DNA from: Erysipelotrichaceae bacterium
GTDB taxonomy: Bacteria; Bacillota_I; Bacilli_A; Erysipelotrichales; Erysipelotrichaceae
Direction: 5' to 3'
Assembly: GCA_015058875.1 (NCBI GenBank)
Contig: SVBN01000018.1
Location: 1 to 48,374, forward strand
DNA length: 48,374 bases
Of this stretch, positions 1 to 47,641 are shown in pieces (within the stretch, counting starts at the first letter, position 1; each line of letters opens with the position of its first letter). The notes beneath the pieces were generated by a model that was not told where the DNA came from, ran no database searches, and saw only the letters and a program-made list of their open reading frames with translations. The position numbers and the translations under genes are program-made.

Positions 1-122
1 ATGCGTATGCAAGATAATTATGAGGCAGAATGCATTGCATAAAGAGTTCGGAAGCCGTATGCGTTAGAGGCGCACGTACGGTTTGACAGGGGGCGGCAGA
101 TGTTGAATCTGTCGCCTACCTT
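1..122 (+). mobile_element. 3' end of a group II intron (domains V and VI)
   Basis: Bases 51-84 form a 34-nt domain V-like hairpin. The AGC triad (53-55) pairs with GTT (81-83), followed by CCGT/ACGG and a GC-rich tip, as in bacterial group II introns. Bases 92-101 pair with 107-116 (ten pairs, one G-T) as a domain VI-like hairpin with loop GTTGA, and the intron should end within a few bases of 118-122. The intron-encoded reverse transcriptase would lie upstream, outside the window. The exact splice site is not fixed by this sequence alone. The intron lies within about 15 nt of the next gene's ribosome-binding site. Confidence 0.8.
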
Positions 123-137
123 ATTATAGAGGCACGC

Positions 138-32567: not shown

Positions 32568-32658
32568 GAAGAAGTACTCAAGAGGTCGAAGAGGTGCCCC
32601 TGCTAAGGGCATAGGTCGGGAAACCGGCGCGAGGGTTCAAATCCCTCCTTCTTCGCCA
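32568..32658 (+). tRNA. tRNA-Ser(GCT)
   Basis: The acceptor stem is GAAGAAG/CTTCTTC, the anticodon GCT is at 32602-32604 within CCCT-GCT-AAGGG, and a long variable arm is typical of serine tRNA. The T-loop is TTCAAAT and CCA is encoded (32656-32658). Confidence 0.96.
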
Positions 32659-32662
32659 TACT

Positions 32663-32738
32663 GGTCCGGTGGTGTAGCGGTTAACATGCCTCCCTGTCAC
32701 GGAGGAGATCGCGAGTTCGATTCTCGTCCGGACCGCCA
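32663..32738 (+). tRNA. tRNA-Asp(GTC)
   Basis: The acceptor stem is GGTCCGG/CCGGACC, the anticodon GTC is at 32696-32698, and the T-loop is TTCGATT. CCA is encoded (32736-32738). It lies 4 nt after tRNA-Ser. Confidence 0.96.
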
Positions 32739-32743
32739 GTTTC

Positions 32744-32814
32744 GCGAGTGTAGTTCAATGGTAGAACGCAACCTTGCCAAGGTTGACACGGCGGTTCGAT
32801 TCCGCTCACTCGCT
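32744..32814 (+). tRNA. tRNA-Gly(GCC), CCA not encoded
   Basis: The acceptor stem is GCGAGTG/CACTCGC, the anticodon GCC is at 32776-32778, the T-loop is TTCGATT, and the discriminator is T at 32814. The following bases are CCT, not CCA, so the end must be completed by the CCA-adding enzyme. Confidence 0.95.
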
Positions 32815-41050: not shown

Positions 41051-42004
41051 ATGAGCGAACAGGCGCAAAGCGTAAAATCATACAATAACAAAAAAGGTTT
41101 CTGGAAGAAACTGAAGCTGGATTTTAAGAATCACTGGCAGATCTATCTGATGGCTGTACCGGTGATTCTGTATTTTGCCATCTTCAATTATGCGCCGATG
41201 GTAGGCATTATCATGGCGTTCCAGAAATATCAGATCAGAAAAGGTATTTTCGGAAGCCAGTTCGTCGGAATGACGAATTTCATGAGATTCTTTTCCGGTC
41301 CGTATTTCTGGAGAACCCTGCGCAATACACTCCTGATCAGTCTGTACGGCCTTCTGCTTTCATTCCCGCTGCCGATTGTATTTGCACTCTGCCTGAATGA
41401 AGTCAGAAATACCAGATTCAAGAAGATAGTGCAGACCATTTCGTATCTTCCGTACTTTATTTCAGTCGTTGTCGTTGTATCCATTCTGTTCGACTTCGGC
41501 AAGTCCAACGGTATCCTGACACAGCTGGCAATGAAGTTCGGATGGTCCGGCGGTGCGATTATCGCAAGTGATAAATGGTTCCGTACGCTGTATATCGGAT
41601 CCAACCTCTGGCAGCACCTCGGATATAACTCCATCATCTTCATTTCCGCACTTGCGGCGATTGATCCGACGCTTTATGAAGCGGCTCGCATTGACGGTGC
41701 CAACCGCTGGCAGCAGACACTGCATGTCACAATTCCCGGAATCGCTTCGACAATCGTTGTCCTGCTCATACTGAGACTCGGTCAGATCATGGGCGTCGGC
41801 TATGAAAAGATCATCCTGATGTACGGCCCTTCGACATACGAAACCGGTGATGTTATCGCCAGTTACGTATATCGTACAGGTATTCTTGACGGAGATTATT
41901 CATATTCCACGGCTGTCAACCTGTTCAATTCCGTTGTGAATCTGATCGTCCTCTGGACAGCGAACACGATCAGCCGCAAGGTAAATGAAACAAGTATCTG
42001 GTAA
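41051..42004 (+). CDS. sugar ABC transporter permease (LplB-like)
   Basis: This is a 317-aa permease with six membrane helices. The EAA loop that docks with the ATPase is Glu-Ala-Ala-Arg-Ile-Asp-Gly-Ala-Asn-Arg-Trp-Gln. The N-terminus (Trp-Gln-Ile-Tyr-Leu-Met-Ala-Val-Pro-Val) is typical of the LplB/YtcP-partner group. It is paired with the next gene. An AAAGAAAGG-type site precedes the start. Confidence 0.92.
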   Translation: MSEQAQSVKSYNNKKGFWKKLKLDFKNHWQIYLMAVPVILYFAIFNYAPMVGIIMAFQKYQIRKGIFGSQFVGMTNFMRFFSGPYFWRTLRNTLLISLYGLLLSFPLPIVFALCLNEVRNTRFKKIVQTISYLPYFISVVVVVSILFDFGKSNGILTQLAMKFGWSGGAIIASDKWFRTLYIGSNLWQHLGYNSIIFISALAAIDPTLYEAARIDGANRWQQTLHVTIPGIASTIVVLLILRLGQIMGVGYEKIILMYGPSTYETGDVIASYVYRTGILDGDYSYSTAVNLFNSVVNLIVLWTANTISRKVNETSIW

Positions 42005-42016
42005 TAGGTGACGAAT

Positions 42017-42901
42017 ATGACGAAAAGAACAACTGGTGAAAAAATATTCGCGGTATTCAATACGATTTTCCTGATACTGCTGTGCATTATCTTTATCCTG
42101 CCGGTATGGCATGTCGCGATGGGATCGATCAGCGATCCGCTCAAGGTTGCCGCAACAAGCGGACTCTATCTGAGACCGCTCGGTACGCCGACGCTCGGCG
42201 GATATAACCTGATTTTCCAGAATCAGACGATTATCAATTCCTATAAAAACACGCTGATTTATGTTATTATGGCAACGCTGATCGGACTTATCCTCAATAT
42301 TCTTGCGGCATATGTCCTCAGCAAATCCAAGCTGACGTTCGTCAAGCAGTTCTCGATGTTTGTTATGTTTACGATGATCTTCAACGGCGGTCTTGTGCCG
42401 ACATTCATCGTCATCAACAAGCTCGGCCTGCTGGATTCCCGCTGGTCAGTCATCCTCCCCGGAGCTCTGACGGCATTCAATATCATTATCATGAGGACTT
42501 CCTTCCAGGAAATCCCTCAGGAAATGATTGAAGCGGCGACCATCGACGGAGCCAGTGATTTCAAGATTCTGACGGATATCGTCCTTCCCGTCAGCAAAGC
42601 AATTATCGCAGTTATCGTGCTCTTCTACGGCATCCAGCATTGGAATTCCTGGTTCCAGGCTTCCATGTACCTGCCGAAGAGAAGAGATCTGTGGCCGCTG
42701 CAGCTGGTTCTGAGAGAAATCGTCCTGCAGTCCACAGAAAACGCAATCGTGGCTGATACGAGCGGTGAAGATGTAATGATCTACAGACCGCTGATCAAAT
42801 ATGCGACCATCATGGTATCTGTCATACCGATGATGATCATCTATCCGTTCGTTCAGAAATATTTCGTTTCCGGCGTCATGATCGGCGCTGTCAAGGGCTG
42901 A
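42017..42901 (+). CDS. sugar ABC transporter permease (YtcP/LplC-like)
   Basis: This is a 294-aa permease with six helices. The EAA loop is Glu-Ala-Ala-Thr-Ile-Asp-Gly-Ala-Ser-Asp-Phe-Lys. The C-terminus Met-Ile-Gly-Ala-Val-Lys-Gly is characteristic of this group (carbohydrate-uptake CUT1). I chose the ATG at 42017 because AGGTGA lies just before it. The in-frame GTG at 42008 lies within that ribosome-binding site. It forms the heterodimeric channel with the preceding permease, from which it is 12 nt away. Confidence 0.92.
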   Translation: MTKRTTGEKIFAVFNTIFLILLCIIFILPVWHVAMGSISDPLKVAATSGLYLRPLGTPTLGGYNLIFQNQTIINSYKNTLIYVIMATLIGLILNILAAYVLSKSKLTFVKQFSMFVMFTMIFNGGLVPTFIVINKLGLLDSRWSVILPGALTAFNIIIMRTSFQEIPQEMIEAATIDGASDFKILTDIVLPVSKAIIAVIVLFYGIQHWNSWFQASMYLPKRRDLWPLQLVLREIVLQSTENAIVADTSGEDVMIYRPLIKYATIMVSVIPMMIIYPFVQKYFVSGVMIGAVKG

Positions 42902-42932
42902 TTCCCGGAAACCATTCCGACTCATTGCCAGA

Positions 42933-42970
42933 AAGCCGGTACTTTTGGAATCATTGTCAGTACGCGGCTT
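42933..42970 (+). other. hairpin between permease and ATPase genes
   Basis: AAGCCGGTACT (42933-42943) pairs with AGTACGCGGCTT (42959-42970), leaving one bulged base. No T-run follows, so it is more likely an RNA stabiliser or processing site than a terminator. Confidence 0.5.
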
Positions 42971-43008
42971 CATAATTCTTTCAAAGGAGAAAGGGGCAAA
43001 AAAACATT

Positions 43009-44217
43009 ATGGCAACAGTATCACTGAAAGGCATCCAGAAGATCTATCCGAACACAGAAAACGAGACCAAGAAGAAGAAAAAGAAGAAGAAGGAAGATGA
43101 GCCTGCAGAGGAGAAATCCTACAAGCTCAAGGTCACCGATGAAGGCGTAGTCGCAGTAGACGACTTCAACCTGGAAATCGCGGACAAGGAATTCATCGTA
43201 CTGGTCGGACCTTCGGGATGCGGCAAATCAACAACGCTGAGAATGGTGGCAGGACTGGAAGAGATCACCAGAGGCGAACTGCGCATTGATGACAGACTGG
43301 TCAACGATGTGGCACCGAAGGACAGAGACATCGCAATGGTATTCCAGAACTATGCACTGTATCCGCATATGACAGTGAGACAGAACCTGGAATTCCCGCT
43401 GAAGCTGAGAAAGGTACCGAAGGATGAGATGGACCGCCGCGTCAATGAAGCAGCGGAGATCCTCGGAATCACACAGTACCTGGACAGAAAACCGAAGGCG
43501 CTCTCAGGCGGTCAGAGACAGCGTGTCGCGATCGGACGTGCGATCGTACGTGAGCCTAAGGTGCTTCTGATGGACGAACCTCTGTCGAACCTGGACGCAA
43601 AGCTGAGAAACCAGATGCGTGCAGAGATCATCAAGCTGAGACAGCGAATCAACACAACCTTCATCTACGTTACACATGACCAGACGGAAGCGATGACACT
43701 GGGAGACAGAATTGTCATCATGAAGGATGGAGAAGTGCAGCAGATCGGAACGCCGCAGGAAGTATTCAACAAGCCGGTAAACACATTCGTAGCGGGATTC
43801 ATCGGAATGCCGCAGATGAACATGTTTGACGGAAGACTGGTGAAGAAAGACGGGAAGTATGCAGTGCAGGTCGGAGATGCGACAATCGTCGTATCGGAAG
43901 ACAAGCAGGAAAGACTGAAGGCACACAATGCATCAGAGCAGGAAGTGCTGGTAGGAGTAAGACCGGAGCACATCACACTGGAGACAACACCGGGAGCTAC
44001 ATTAACCGGAGAAGTAGAAGTCTCTGAAATGATGGGTTCATCCGTGCATCTGCATCTGAACACACTCGGAAGAGATGTGATTGTCATTGTACCGACCCTG
44101 GATCTGAAGGACAACAGTCTGGGTATCGGATCAAAGATCGAGTTCACATTCGCCCCGAACGCCGTACACATCTTCGATCCGGCAAGCGGCAAAAACCTCG
44201 AATACCTCAACGACTGA
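43009..44217 (+). CDS. ugpC: sugar ABC transporter ATP-binding protein (MsmX/UgpC type)
   Basis: This is a 402-aa ATPase that drives CUT1 sugar importers. Walker A Gly-Pro-Ser-Gly-Cys-Gly-Lys-Ser-Thr is at 67-75, the signature is Leu-Ser-Gly-Gly-Gln-Arg-Gln-Arg, and Walker B is Leu-Leu-Met-Asp-Glu-Pro. The C-terminal TOBE-type regulatory domain is normal. An insertion near the N-terminus has eight consecutive lysines (21-28) followed by acidic residues, encoded by an AAG/AAA-rich run. The gene is last in the importer operon, 107 nt after the second permease, with an AAAGGAGAAAGGGG site. MsmX-type ATPases often serve several importers, so it may not be dedicated to this one. Confidence 0.94.
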   Translation: MATVSLKGIQKIYPNTENETKKKKKKKKEDEPAEEKSYKLKVTDEGVVAVDDFNLEIADKEFIVLVGPSGCGKSTTLRMVAGLEEITRGELRIDDRLVNDVAPKDRDIAMVFQNYALYPHMTVRQNLEFPLKLRKVPKDEMDRRVNEAAEILGITQYLDRKPKALSGGQRQRVAIGRAIVREPKVLLMDEPLSNLDAKLRNQMRAEIIKLRQRINTTFIYVTHDQTEAMTLGDRIVIMKDGEVQQIGTPQEVFNKPVNTFVAGFIGMPQMNMFDGRLVKKDGKYAVQVGDATIVVSEDKQERLKAHNASEQEVLVGVRPEHITLETTPGATLTGEVEVSEMMGSSVHLHLNTLGRDVIVIVPTLDLKDNSLGIGSKIEFTFAPNAVHIFDPASGKNLEYLND

Positions 44218-44333: not shown

Positions 44334-47300
44334 TTATTCGTAGATGACGCAGTTGTTTCTGCCGGCTTCCTTTGCCCGGTAGAGTGCGGTATCCGCATCC
44401 TGGAAGATATCTCCCTGGGGATTCTGGCGGTCCGAGAATGCCGCACCGACACTGAGCGTAATCGGCGGCAGATCATCCTTCGGATATCTGAGCAGATCAT
44501 TGGCTCTGCGGATCTTGTTCAGCACCACGTGTCTCATCGATGAATTGGCTCTGGTCATGACGACCACAAACTCATCACCGCCCAGCCGGCAGATAATATC
44601 CACGGAACGGAAGCTGTTCTTCAGTATCTCGGCCACCCGCTTCAGCACCCGGTCGCCGACCGCGTGTCCGTAGGTATCATTGACTCCCTTGAAGTTGTCT
44701 ACGTCCACAATGATCAGCGCCATATGCTCCGTGTCCACGCTCTCCATTAACATGTCATAGGCGCCGCGGTTGAACAGACCTGTCAAAGCATCGTGGGATG
44801 CCTCATGGCTCAGGCGTTCCCTGGCTTCTTCGTTTTCCTTCAGGATTGCATTGTAGGTCCTTGTAACAAACCGCAGCTCCTCGGCACCGGTCGGCTGGAT
44901 GCTCTTCTGTGCGCGCATCATCTCCACCATCCGGGACAGCGGCTTGCGGATCTGTTCATTGATAATCAGAACGATCAGCAGCACAATCACCAGCATCAAT
45001 ATGGTCAGCGCCGTCTGGATATTGATCAGGAATGACATTCTGGCGGATGCCTGTTCCAGTTCCAGGCTCGAGGTACGGATCAGCGTCTGGGTGCACTGGC
45101 CGACATTCTCACGGATTCTGTCCTTGTAGTGCATGTAGCTGTTGTCAAATACCAGCAGCTGCGCCTCTTTCAGCAGCTCCTCTTCCGTCATATTCCGGTA
45201 TTCCGCCGGAATTTCGATATTCCTGAGGGCGTCCGGCATATCGGCCGGCCTGGTGCCCTGTGCTTCCAGCCTCAGCCGCATGGCCAGATGTTCGGTGACG
45301 ATCAGTTCATTGGACAGTTTCAGTGCGGTATTCAGGCTGATGAGTGCCGCATTGTTGGAATCGCCCAGCAGTTCCTCCAGATTTTCGACAGCGCGGTCTC
45401 TGGTTTTTGTGACTTCCACTTCCTCAAGGAAATCATCCAGATAAGCCTCATCCCCGGTTACGACAAAGCATCTGACCCGATCGGTCAGATAATCCGATCC
45501 GGATTCCATATCCGAGGCTGCCATCTGGGCCGATATATACCGGTCGCTTGCCTTTTCCATGCGCTGATAGCCATGGGTTACGGAGACGTCCGCAATCATC
45601 AGGGCAATCGCCGCCGCAAATGCCGCAATGACAAAGAACAGATTTGCCGTGCGCAGATGCAGACCGCTGCCCCTCTCGTGCTGTTCTTCCTGACCGCTCC
45701 CTGCGGAAAGCAGGTCTTCTTCCCGGACTGCGGAAGAAGGATACCCGGGTCTGGAACTGATGATCTCGATCTTATCCCTGTTTCCGGCAGCTGCCGTTTC
45801 GGTATTGAGACGTTCTTTCCGCTGTTCGATAAACGGCACAAACTCTTCTGCCGGCACCGGTTTCGAAAAATAGTAACCCTGTACAATGCCGCATCCCATG
45901 CTGCGGAGAGCTTCCAGCTGTTCTGCCGTTTCCACCCCTTCCGCTATGACCGGTACGGTCAGGTAATCCGCAATATCAATGATGATTTCCAGCATATGCG
46001 TATTTCCGCCTTCTCTGAATGCGCTGCGGACAAACTGCATATCCAGCTTCAGCGAATCAATCGGCAGAGAGGAAATCATGTTCAGTGAGGAATACCCGGT
46101 TCCGAAATCATCCATTTCAATCTGGAAGCCGAGTTCTCTGAGCCGGTCAACCGTTTTGATGATCTGACCGGAGTCCTGTGTATAGGCGGATTCTGTAACT
46201 TCCAGTCTCAGATCACGGCTGGAGATTCCGTTTTCTTCCAGAATCGCCGCCAGTGTATCCGCCAGATCCGGATCAAACATGTCGATGCGCGAGACATTCA
46301 CCGATACCGGCAGCGAATAATGCAGTTCATCACGCCATCTGCGGATCTGCCGTGCCGTTTCCCGCCAGACATACTGATCCAGTTTCCGGATCAGACCGTT
46401 CTCTTCAAACAGCGGAATAAAGACACCCGGACTGATAAAGCCGAGCTTCGGATGAATCCAGCGGACCAGAGCCTCCGCGCCATAGAGCAGCGGAGTTTCC
46501 GGCCGGACATCAAACTTCGGCTGATAATAAACCGTAAACTGATTTTCATCGATTGCGGTCTGGAAATCCTCGATCAGCTGTTCGGCATACAGCTGCTGTG
46601 CATGCAGCGTCTCATCATAAATGCCGATTGTTTTTGTAAAGCTGCCGCGGACTCTGTCAGAGGCCATTTTTGCCCGGTCAAAACGCCGTTCGATATCAAT
46701 CGTCTTGTCGGCAAAAGGATAGATTCCCATGCGCAGACGGATGCGGCTGACCGACTGCCCGGTTTCCAGCCCGGAGGAGATTCCGGCCAGGATTTCCGCA
46801 TAATCCTCGCGGTGCGGACAGTACACCATAAAGGTATCTGCCTCACGGCGGCACACAATTCCTTCCGACTCACTGACCGCGCCCCTCAGCAGTCCGGCGA
46901 CGCTGCGCAGCACCTCATCGCCGTACGCCTTGCCGTAGCGCTCATTCACCAGATGGAAGTGGTTGATATCCAGAACGACCGCATCCATATCCTTGGTTTT
47001 ATGGAACTGGTCATACTGTTCTGCATAGCGGTAAAAATAATCAATATTGTAGAGCCCGGTCAGTTCATCGCGCTCGGTGGAGCGGATAATATCCCGGTCT
47101 TCCGAAAGTTCAATTGTACGGGTGACCCTCGCCAGGATGACATCCGGTGCCGGGTACGGTTTCGGGATGAAATCGATCGCCCCGAGCTTCAGGCTCTCGA
47201 CTTCCGCATCCTGCTCTGAGGTAATGACAATCACCGGAATCCCGGCAGTTTCACTGTCTGCTTTCACCGCTTTTAAAACTTCCATCCCGTTCATGACCGG

Positions 47301-47507
47301 CATCAGAATGTCCAGCAGAACAAGTGAAAGCGTATCTTTATATTCACGGATCATTTCCAGTGCCTGCACACCGTTTTCCGCAAAGATTACTTCATGGCTG
47401 ATTTTTAAGATTGCCCCGAGCAGTTCCCGGTTGATCATTTCATCATCCGCTACCAGAATCAGACGTTTCCCGTTGGATGAATGAAATTTTTCATGATTCT
47501 TCGGCAT
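44334..47507 (-). CDS. REC-GGDEF*-EAL-TM-sensor-TM-GGDEF cyclic-di-GMP signalling protein
   Basis: The protein has 1057 aa. Residues 15-130 are a receiver domain (acidic Asp21-Asp22, phospho-acceptor Asp66, Lys116). Residues about 140-300 are a degenerate GGDEF domain (signature replaced by Arg-Arg-Glu-Ala-Asp at 220-224). Residues about 305-560 are an EAL phosphodiesterase with Glu345-Ala-Leu, Asn404, Glu436, Asp466-Asp467, Lys487 and Glu523 all present. A span at 622-641, an extracytoplasmic sensor (about 642-828) and a span at 830-849 follow. Residues about 895-1057 are an intact diguanylate cyclase (Gly-Gly-Asp-Glu-Phe 976-980) with an inhibitory RxxD site at 967-970. Synthesis and breakdown of c-di-GMP are thus joined in one chain. 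I chose the ATG at 47507, with GGAGG 9 nt upstream. It is monocistronic, and no histidine kinase is nearby. Confidence 0.93.
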   Translation of the reverse strand: MPKNHEKFHSSNGKRLILVADDEMINRELLGAILKISHEVIFAENGVQALEMIREYKDTLSLVLLDILMPVMNGMEVLKAVKADSETAGIPVIVITSEQDAEVESLKLGAIDFIPKPYPAPDVILARVTRTIELSEDRDIIRSTERDELTGLYNIDYFYRYAEQYDQFHKTKDMDAVVLDINHFHLVNERYGKAYGDEVLRSVAGLLRGAVSESEGIVCRREADTFMVYCPHREDYAEILAGISSGLETGQSVSRIRLRMGIYPFADKTIDIERRFDRAKMASDRVRGSFTKTIGIYDETLHAQQLYAEQLIEDFQTAIDENQFTVYYQPKFDVRPETPLLYGAEALVRWIHPKLGFISPGVFIPLFEENGLIRKLDQYVWRETARQIRRWRDELHYSLPVSVNVSRIDMFDPDLADTLAAILEENGISSRDLRLEVTESAYTQDSGQIIKTVDRLRELGFQIEMDDFGTGYSSLNMISSLPIDSLKLDMQFVRSAFREGGNTHMLEIIIDIADYLTVPVIAEGVETAEQLEALRSMGCGIVQGYYFSKPVPAEEFVPFIEQRKERLNTETAAAGNRDKIEIISSRPGYPSSAVREEDLLSAGSGQEEQHERGSGLHLRTANLFFVIAAFAAAIALMIADVSVTHGYQRMEKASDRYISAQMAASDMESGSDYLTDRVRCFVVTGDEAYLDDFLEEVEVTKTRDRAVENLEELLGDSNNAALISLNTALKLSNELIVTEHLAMRLRLEAQGTRPADMPDALRNIEIPAEYRNMTEEELLKEAQLLVFDNSYMHYKDRIRENVGQCTQTLIRTSSLELEQASARMSFLINIQTALTILMLVIVLLIVLIINEQIRKPLSRMVEMMRAQKSIQPTGAEELRFVTRTYNAILKENEEARERLSHEASHDALTGLFNRGAYDMLMESVDTEHMALIIVDVDNFKGVNDTYGHAVGDRVLKRVAEILKNSFRSVDIICRLGGDEFVVVMTRANSSMRHVVLNKIRRANDLLRYPKDDLPPITLSVGAAFSDRQNPQGDIFQDADTALYRAKEAGRNNCVIYE

Positions 47508-47641
47508 GGCGCATTTCCTCCGATACACGATATTTCTGAGAAGACAGATAAAAAGGCGGTGTTCTTCTGCCATTTTATCATGGTGGAAGAATCGCCGTCA
47601 TTCGTTATTTCTCATAAGCAGAAATTATCCGCATATAAAAC

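Follow-up and report, generated by a model that had tools for sequence, protein, structure and literature searches.

A predicted single-chain c-di-GMP turnover protein joining a REC-GGDEF-EAL regulator to a membrane sensor cyclase in an Erysipelotrichaceae bacterium

The DNA analysed here (the window) is the whole of contig SVBN01000018.1, 48,374 nucleotides long and labelled C37 in our set, from the draft assembly of an Erysipelotrichaceae gut bacterium (3.03 Mb in 125 contigs). Its minus strand encodes one long protein of cyclic diguanylate (c-di-GMP) signalling, whose parts run in the order REC receiver, degenerate GGDEF (GGDEF*), EAL, variable linker, transmembrane segment (TM), helical sensor, TM and a GGDEF domain with an I-site (Table 1). 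A preliminary description of the same DNA had proposed that a REC-GGDEF*-EAL regulator is joined here to a TM-sensor-TM-GGDEF cyclase, and Pfam matches and hydropathy bear out this architecture. The reading frame is open from an ATG at 47573 to the TAA stop codon at 44336-44334; the ATG at 47507 is the likelier start because the motif GGAGGA precedes it.

Table 1. The gene, its predicted domains and flanking signals, in window positions.
Feature	Position	Strand	Basis
Whole gene, 1,057 residues and stop codon	44334..47507	-	Open frame; 25 complete full-length relatives
Likely ribosome-binding site GGAGGA	47516..47521	-	By-eye reading
REC receiver, residues 17-125, phospho-acceptor Asp66	47133..47459	-	PF00072, family E 7.6e-19
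First GGDEF, degenerate (EADTF), about residues 146-300	46608..47072	-	PF00990 second stretch; motif table
EAL phosphodiesterase domain, residues 313-550	45858..46571	-	PF00563, E 5.9e-67
Variable linker (fusion seam), residues 565-612	45672..45815	-	Identity 0.19; low pLDDT
TM1, about residues 623-641	45585..45641	-	Hydropathy
Helical extracytoplasmic sensor, residues 646-828	45024..45572	-	Between TMs; all helix in model
TM2, about residues 830-848	44964..45020	-	Hydropathy
HAMP-like signalling helices, residues 853-895	44823..44951	-	Position and look only
C-terminal GGDEF cyclase domain, I-site R967xxD970, G976-F980	44352..44801	-	PF00990
Terminator-like hairpin and T run, 3' of stop codon	44290..44322	-	By-eye reading, no terminator scan

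Both catalytic sets appear to be intact, as had been claimed together with Asp66, the degenerate first GGDEF and the I-site of the second. We counted invariance over 26 chains, i.e. the window protein and 25 complete relatives, with pairwise identities of 0.54-0.96 (median 0.67). The REC residues D22, E23, D66, T96 and K116 are invariant in 26/26 chains and supply the phospho-acceptor Asp with the acidic, Thr/Ser and Lys residues of a response regulator. Equally invariant are E345, N404, E436, D466, D467, K487, E523, E526 and Q543 of the EAL domain, seemingly the complete metal and catalytic set of a phosphodiesterase. We take the catalytic and metal residues of the two domains to have their usual roles; the residue register was obtained by aligning EAL to the solved MorA and REC to PleD, and both agree. 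The C-terminal GGDEF (best Pfam stretch at residues 903-1052, family E 1.9e-55) carries what looks like an active motif, GG(D/E)EF at G976-F980, plus an RxxD I-site at R967 and D970 (RSVD in the window), all invariant in the 26 chains. D952 of the same domain is also invariant, and its position presumably favours c-di-GMP over cyclic GMP-AMP. The first GGDEF (Pfam match at window 46662-47072) reads EADTF in the window and variants of EADTF in the relatives, and so departs from GG(D/E)EF.

Modelled in full with AlphaFold2, the chain has a mean pLDDT (predicted local distance difference test) of 80.7, and its individual domains are judged fair to good. Its GGDEF*-EAL part matches RmcA (PA0575), MorA, DosP and other EAL enzymes using Foldseek and VIA-align, and the match to RocR spans REC to EAL (model residues 14-569). 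In this model the sensor consists of helices throughout; its mean pairwise identity among the chains is 0.65. No convincing Pfam or PDB relative was found for it in sequence-level searches; a CHASE3 profile matched 2 of 27 members weakly (best E 0.003), and the NCBIfam matches listed fall on the catalytic and receiver parts alone, none on the sensor. The helices after TM2 had been called HAMP-like, which holds for the sequence pattern as read by eye and does not extend to Pfam, where the window protein has no HAMP match up to E = 1.

The same domain order, which the preliminary description had suggested looking for in other genomes, recurs in 25 complete chains of related uncultured bacteria. 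Our scan of genome contigs gave 102 stretches, of which 100 were relatives; 80 loci were kept from these, and a chain was called complete when one piece matched the query from residue 20 or before to residue 1,040 or beyond. The 25 complete chains are 57-68% identical to the window protein. Five further loci are cut by contig ends (L045, L058, L060, L061 and L094), two have broken frames (L062 and L063), and 47 of the 80 hold other architectures or are cut shorter. A natural variant, L096:5785-8670, retains the two catalytic ends and a pair of hydrophobic segments but has lost most of the sensor. We refer to the window's architecture as type A and use 31 rows for it: the window, the 25 complete chains, L045 and L061 (5' cut), L060 (3' cut), L063 and L096, with L058, L062 and L094 not counted. 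Among the matches listed, sorted by score, for 59 other genomes there was no full-length match. The near relatives (L038-L117) lie in genomes labelled Lachnospiraceae, Oscillospiraceae, Erysipelotrichaceae, Mogibacterium, Coriobacteriaceae, Eggerthellaceae and Chloroflexi, labels whose conflict reflects either loosely labelled gut genomes or gene transfer.

The linker between the two halves looks as one would expect of a fusion seam. It is the sole unconserved stretch of the chain, with a mean pairwise identity of 0.19 and a length of 36-91 residues, against 0.50-0.78 for the other stretches measured. Both halves are also found apart. The C-terminal half occurs as stand-alone frames of ~450-520 residues, seven aligned genes of this kind being 29-38% identical to the fused half, and the REC-GGDEF*-EAL part is found without the cyclase half. 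In L102 and L103 a stand-alone cyclase half precedes a same-strand REC-GGDEF*-EAL gene by 19 and 156 bases, and in L120 the two genes are divergent and 211 bases apart. On a tree of C-terminal halves (39 rows, 31 fused and 8 stand-alone, with one gene present twice as L009 and L120) the fused rows form one side of a branch with an SH-aLRT (Shimodaira-Hasegawa-like approximate likelihood ratio test) value of 93. This tree fits a single fusion event, with several long branches of unsure placement. Together the full-length relatives, the stand-alone halves and the tree support the earlier suggestion that two full-length signalling genes were fused. Over 27 chains the pairwise identities of the two halves correlate (Mantel r 0.64, with 0 of 2,000 permutations as high), which suggests that the halves have mostly travelled together.

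The fused chain belongs to a wider family built on the same regulator. It is represented here by 95 distinct proteins that contain the REC-GGDEF*-EAL part; because they were selected for resemblance to the window protein, the proportions of types are not those of nature. Beside the 31 of type A, 21 have a longer stretch without predicted TM followed by a GGDEF (type C), a last domain that keeps the GGDEF motif in 15 of 21 and matches the I-site pattern in none. Six carry a direct C-terminal GGDEF without the motif (type B), four have an N-terminal permease-like part and a GGDEF (type D), eight have another tail (type F), and 25 have nothing beyond REC-GGDEF*-EAL (type E), some of them fragments, including L062, a piece of a broken full-length gene. 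In 15 of the 95 another GGDEF open reading frame (ORF) is found no more than 300 bases away, two of these cases being doubtful (short pieces in L089, an EAL-GGDEF piece in L111). The architecture labels need 15 changes on the chassis tree versus 52.7 in shuffles, and hence the architectures appear to be inherited for long stretches. L092 and L096 fall outside the main type A group there, as they do in the tree of C-terminal halves, and both trees carry a long-branch warning.

Other members of this family combine the same units in other ways. The window's own genome encodes on contig C65 (L118:4411-8906) a REC-GGDEF*-EAL paralogue, 65% identical over the shared part and with a tail of ~180 residues. 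Its neighbour on the same strand is an amino-acid-permease-GGDEF gene, and a GH32 gene comes next. Single chains of ~1,460 residues occur at L124:2936-7312, L125:264-4652, L126:3424-7824 and L127:2-3835 (the last one cut). They run from a permease-like membrane part through GGDEF and REC to a degenerate GGDEF and EAL, i.e. units fused in the opposite order, and the C65 gene pair is their two-gene counterpart. The family pairs one phosphodiesterase response regulator repeatedly, fused or adjoining, with cyclases that bear different sensors.

Kinase genes beside the relatives support a phosphorylation input to the receiver. A hybrid histidine kinase is encoded on the same strand within 300 bases in 11 of the 30 type A relatives, and in 8 of the 23 relatives that have at least 1 kb of sequence on both sides. 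We checked nine kinases from type A and other fetched loci, and all carry HisKA, HATPase and REC domains. The chance expectation, as a rough guess rather than a computed value, is ~2% per gene. Five of the 11 kinase-bearing loci (L048, L052, L054, L057 and L060) form one clade, giving about seven lineages in all. The window's genome has 24 HATPase matches, 21 of them over the cut-off. Three of the hybrid histidine kinases (L048:9158-12028, L068:3535-6384 and L089:821-3763) have an N-terminal membrane part that matches amino acid permeases in Pfam.

The chain is the sole GGDEF and EAL protein found in a number of genomes. We counted both domains in 31 other genomes with the chain or a piece of it and in the window's own, all drafts of unstated completeness. 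In 11 of the 31 (G061, G062, G069, G077, G078, G081, G082, G084, G086, G088 and G093) no GGDEF or EAL protein other than the chain was found, with the chain of G088 truncated at residue 43 where its contig ends; G089 resembles them, except that its chain frame is broken. Three of the 11 (G061, G086 and G093) have an HD-GYP match (PF13487), and the other eight, in which none was found, represent about five lineages, with G077, G082 and G084 related to one another and G078 to G081. The window's genome itself does not belong with these one-enzyme genomes: 5 of its 7 GGDEF and 2 of its 3 EAL matches lie outside this gene.

PilZ domains and c-di-GMP-I riboswitches were the c-di-GMP receptors searched for, in line with the check suggested earlier. 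PilZ was found in 0 of 29 genomes and the c-di-GMP-I riboswitch in 6 of 29. The window's genome gave no c-di-GMP-I riboswitch (150 and 103 of 265 candidates scored; c-di-GMP-II not searched), and as the scan scored 103 candidates in most genomes, absences are weak. Among the eight one-chain genomes without an HD-GYP match only G062 gave such a riboswitch. There, within L141:1501-1884, the aptamer is succeeded by a terminator-like hairpin and T run and then by an ORF at L141:1768, whose start resembles that of a secreted protein and which is cut off where the contig ends; the fold of aptamer and hairpin has a z of -2.06, and 6 of 200 shuffles did equally well. The riboswitch of G066 stands before a GGDEF ORF, and the match in that ORF contains a stop codon.

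We propose, with a probability of roughly 0.6 and judging from the sequence, that the protein is an enzyme of c-di-GMP turnover in which one membrane-anchored chain combines two opposite activities, each with an input of its own. A histidine kinase would phosphorylate Asp66 of REC, and the phosphorylated receiver would act by way of the degenerate first GGDEF to alter, and most likely raise, the activity of the EAL phosphodiesterase. This first GGDEF may bind GTP and activate the following EAL, as degenerate GGDEF domains can do (PMC10333796). Independently the helical sensor would read an extracytoplasmic cue, which TM2 and the HAMP-like helices would relay to the C-terminal GGDEF; a pair of these GGDEF domains in a homodimer would make c-di-GMP, with the I-site capping the product. 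The fusion would fix the ratio of maker to breaker at 1:1 and hold both at the membrane. The open frame, a fused chain kept across relatives, the invariant residues and the kinase genes next to some relatives are observed; both activities, the direction of control, a ligand, the dimer and any influence of the halves on each other are inferred from them. Opposed control by Asp66 phosphorylation and an outside ligand, as the preliminary description had put it, would fit the invariant residues and the kinase neighbours of the relatives.

Several observations weigh against this proposal. Our profiles found no kinase in the window, and of the 23 relatives flanked by 1 kb or more on each side, 15 have none within 300 bp. 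The earlier remark that no kinase is nearby thus holds within the contig alone; some relatives do have kinase neighbours. A directly attached C-terminal GGDEF has lost its motif in 6/6 relatives (type B), and therefore a fused GGDEF is not necessarily a cyclase in this family. The arrangement of the domains in the model is unsure (pTM, the predicted template modelling score, 0.43), and rigid coupling of the halves appears unlikely because residues 576-616 of the linker are disordered with pLDDT under 50.

An alternative hypothesis is that only one half is enzymatic, with the EAL acting as a c-di-GMP receptor that gates the cyclase, or with the cyclase held by its I-site so that the net activity is that of a phosphodiesterase. 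The fold matches of the model include LapD and FimX, both of which we take to be receptors whose domains are degenerate. Many tandem GGDEF-EAL proteins also show a single activity (PMC2994820). However, the catalytic residues of both domains are invariant throughout the 26 chains, unlike those of receptors that lost theirs, and we regard this alternative as unlikely. The receiver raises another question, as its best PDB match by sequence is PleD, which like WspR has a receiver that switches a cyclase by dimerisation. Phosphorylation might accordingly act mainly via dimerisation on the cyclase and not on the phosphodiesterase. This seems quite improbable, with REC joined directly to GGDEF*-EAL, the cyclase lying beyond a variable linker and a membrane pass, and the REC-GGDEF*-EAL part occurring also without the cyclase half.

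Both activities could be real and yet serve a partner bound by the chain, turning c-di-GMP over at the site of that partner rather than in the pool of the cell. The membrane anchoring and the fixed 1:1 ratio would suit such local signalling, for which there are precedents (PMC5635695), but no partner gene recurs beside the chain, and in the 11 genomes where it is the sole such protein found there is nothing to be local against; we hold this to be rather unlikely. It could finally be asked whether the chain is an artefact of two genes joined by misassembly or by a lost stop codon, considering that the source is a draft of 125 contigs and that 2 of 80 loci (L062 and L063) have broken frames. The 25 complete and continuous relatives from other assemblies refute this, leaving it a negligible chance, and they likewise dispose of an assembly join or frameshift at residues 565-620 and of split genes in all relatives.

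Bifunctional c-di-GMP proteins are already known, and it is the domain order of the turnover enzyme proposed here that is a new arrangement by the literature searched. The mycobacterial GAF-GGDEF-EAL enzymes have both activities in one protein (PMC2994820; PMC9676404). MSDGC-1 of Mycobacterium smegmatis and MtbDGC (Rv1354c) make and break c-di-GMP in one protein, as is proposed for the window chain, but in these enzymes a single tandem GGDEF-EAL controlled by a GAF domain has both activities. In the window chain the tandem GGDEF is degenerate, the likely cyclase is a second, membrane-linked GGDEF with its own sensor, and a receiver would serve as an extra input. Since the MSDGC-1 type has an active GGDEF directly before an active EAL, the window chain would work like this type without being a member of it.

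Other known proteins share parts of the chain. The REC-GGDEF-EAL regulators of Acidithiobacillus, whose gene is preceded by a kinase gene (PMC6416229), have the same N-terminal order but no attached TM sensor cyclase. FimX (REC-PAS-dGGDEF-EAL), described as a c-di-GMP-binding protein with a degenerate GGDEF (PMC10333796), is similar in its N-terminal order and also without that half. RocR of Pseudomonas aeruginosa (REC-EAL) shares the receiver and the EAL, without a GGDEF between them and without a cyclase half. The best solved matches of the GGDEF*-EAL part are RmcA (PA0575) and MorA, about 31-33% identical, in which we presume the sensors to be N-terminal and a second C-terminal cyclase to be lacking. 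The stand-alone TM-sensor-TM-GGDEF genes (L102, L103, L120 and others) have the same sensor and GGDEF with no phosphodiesterase attached. We found no description of REC-GGDEF*-EAL with a second membrane-bound sensor cyclase in the open-licence literature searched, mostly at listing level.

In bacteria the synthesis and breakdown of c-di-GMP are usually spread across several proteins, and the coordination of these opposed enzymes is debated. Here the opposed enzymes would be tied in one chain with separate inputs, in several draft genomes without another such enzyme found. We speculate that in some uncultured gut bacteria one polypeptide might account for all c-di-GMP metabolism, as the only maker and the only breaker: a kinase would control the breaker and an outside sensor the maker, and in one case a single riboswitch would be the reader. 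This is possible, though doubtful. If true, the protein would form a two-input switch complete in itself and would rank with the smallest c-di-GMP circuits in nature that have opposed inputs. Such an arrangement would make it possible to ask whether opposed c-di-GMP enzymes serve a shared or a local pool.

The gene looks monocistronic, because a hairpin with a T run follows its stop codon and a second hairpin-like end, read by eye, lies between it and the upstream ORF on the same strand. Profiles of our own detected no other GGDEF or EAL ORF in the window, which agrees with the earlier statement that no other c-di-GMP gene is nearby, and the window's neighbour genes were not found recurring beside the fused relatives. 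The genes at 41051-44217, which converge on this one, resemble a sugar ABC transporter set judging from their translations, which were read without a search. Farther away, a group II intron match (RF00029, 48.4 bits) lies at the contig edge (window 50-124), and three consecutive tRNA genes occupy window 32568-32814.

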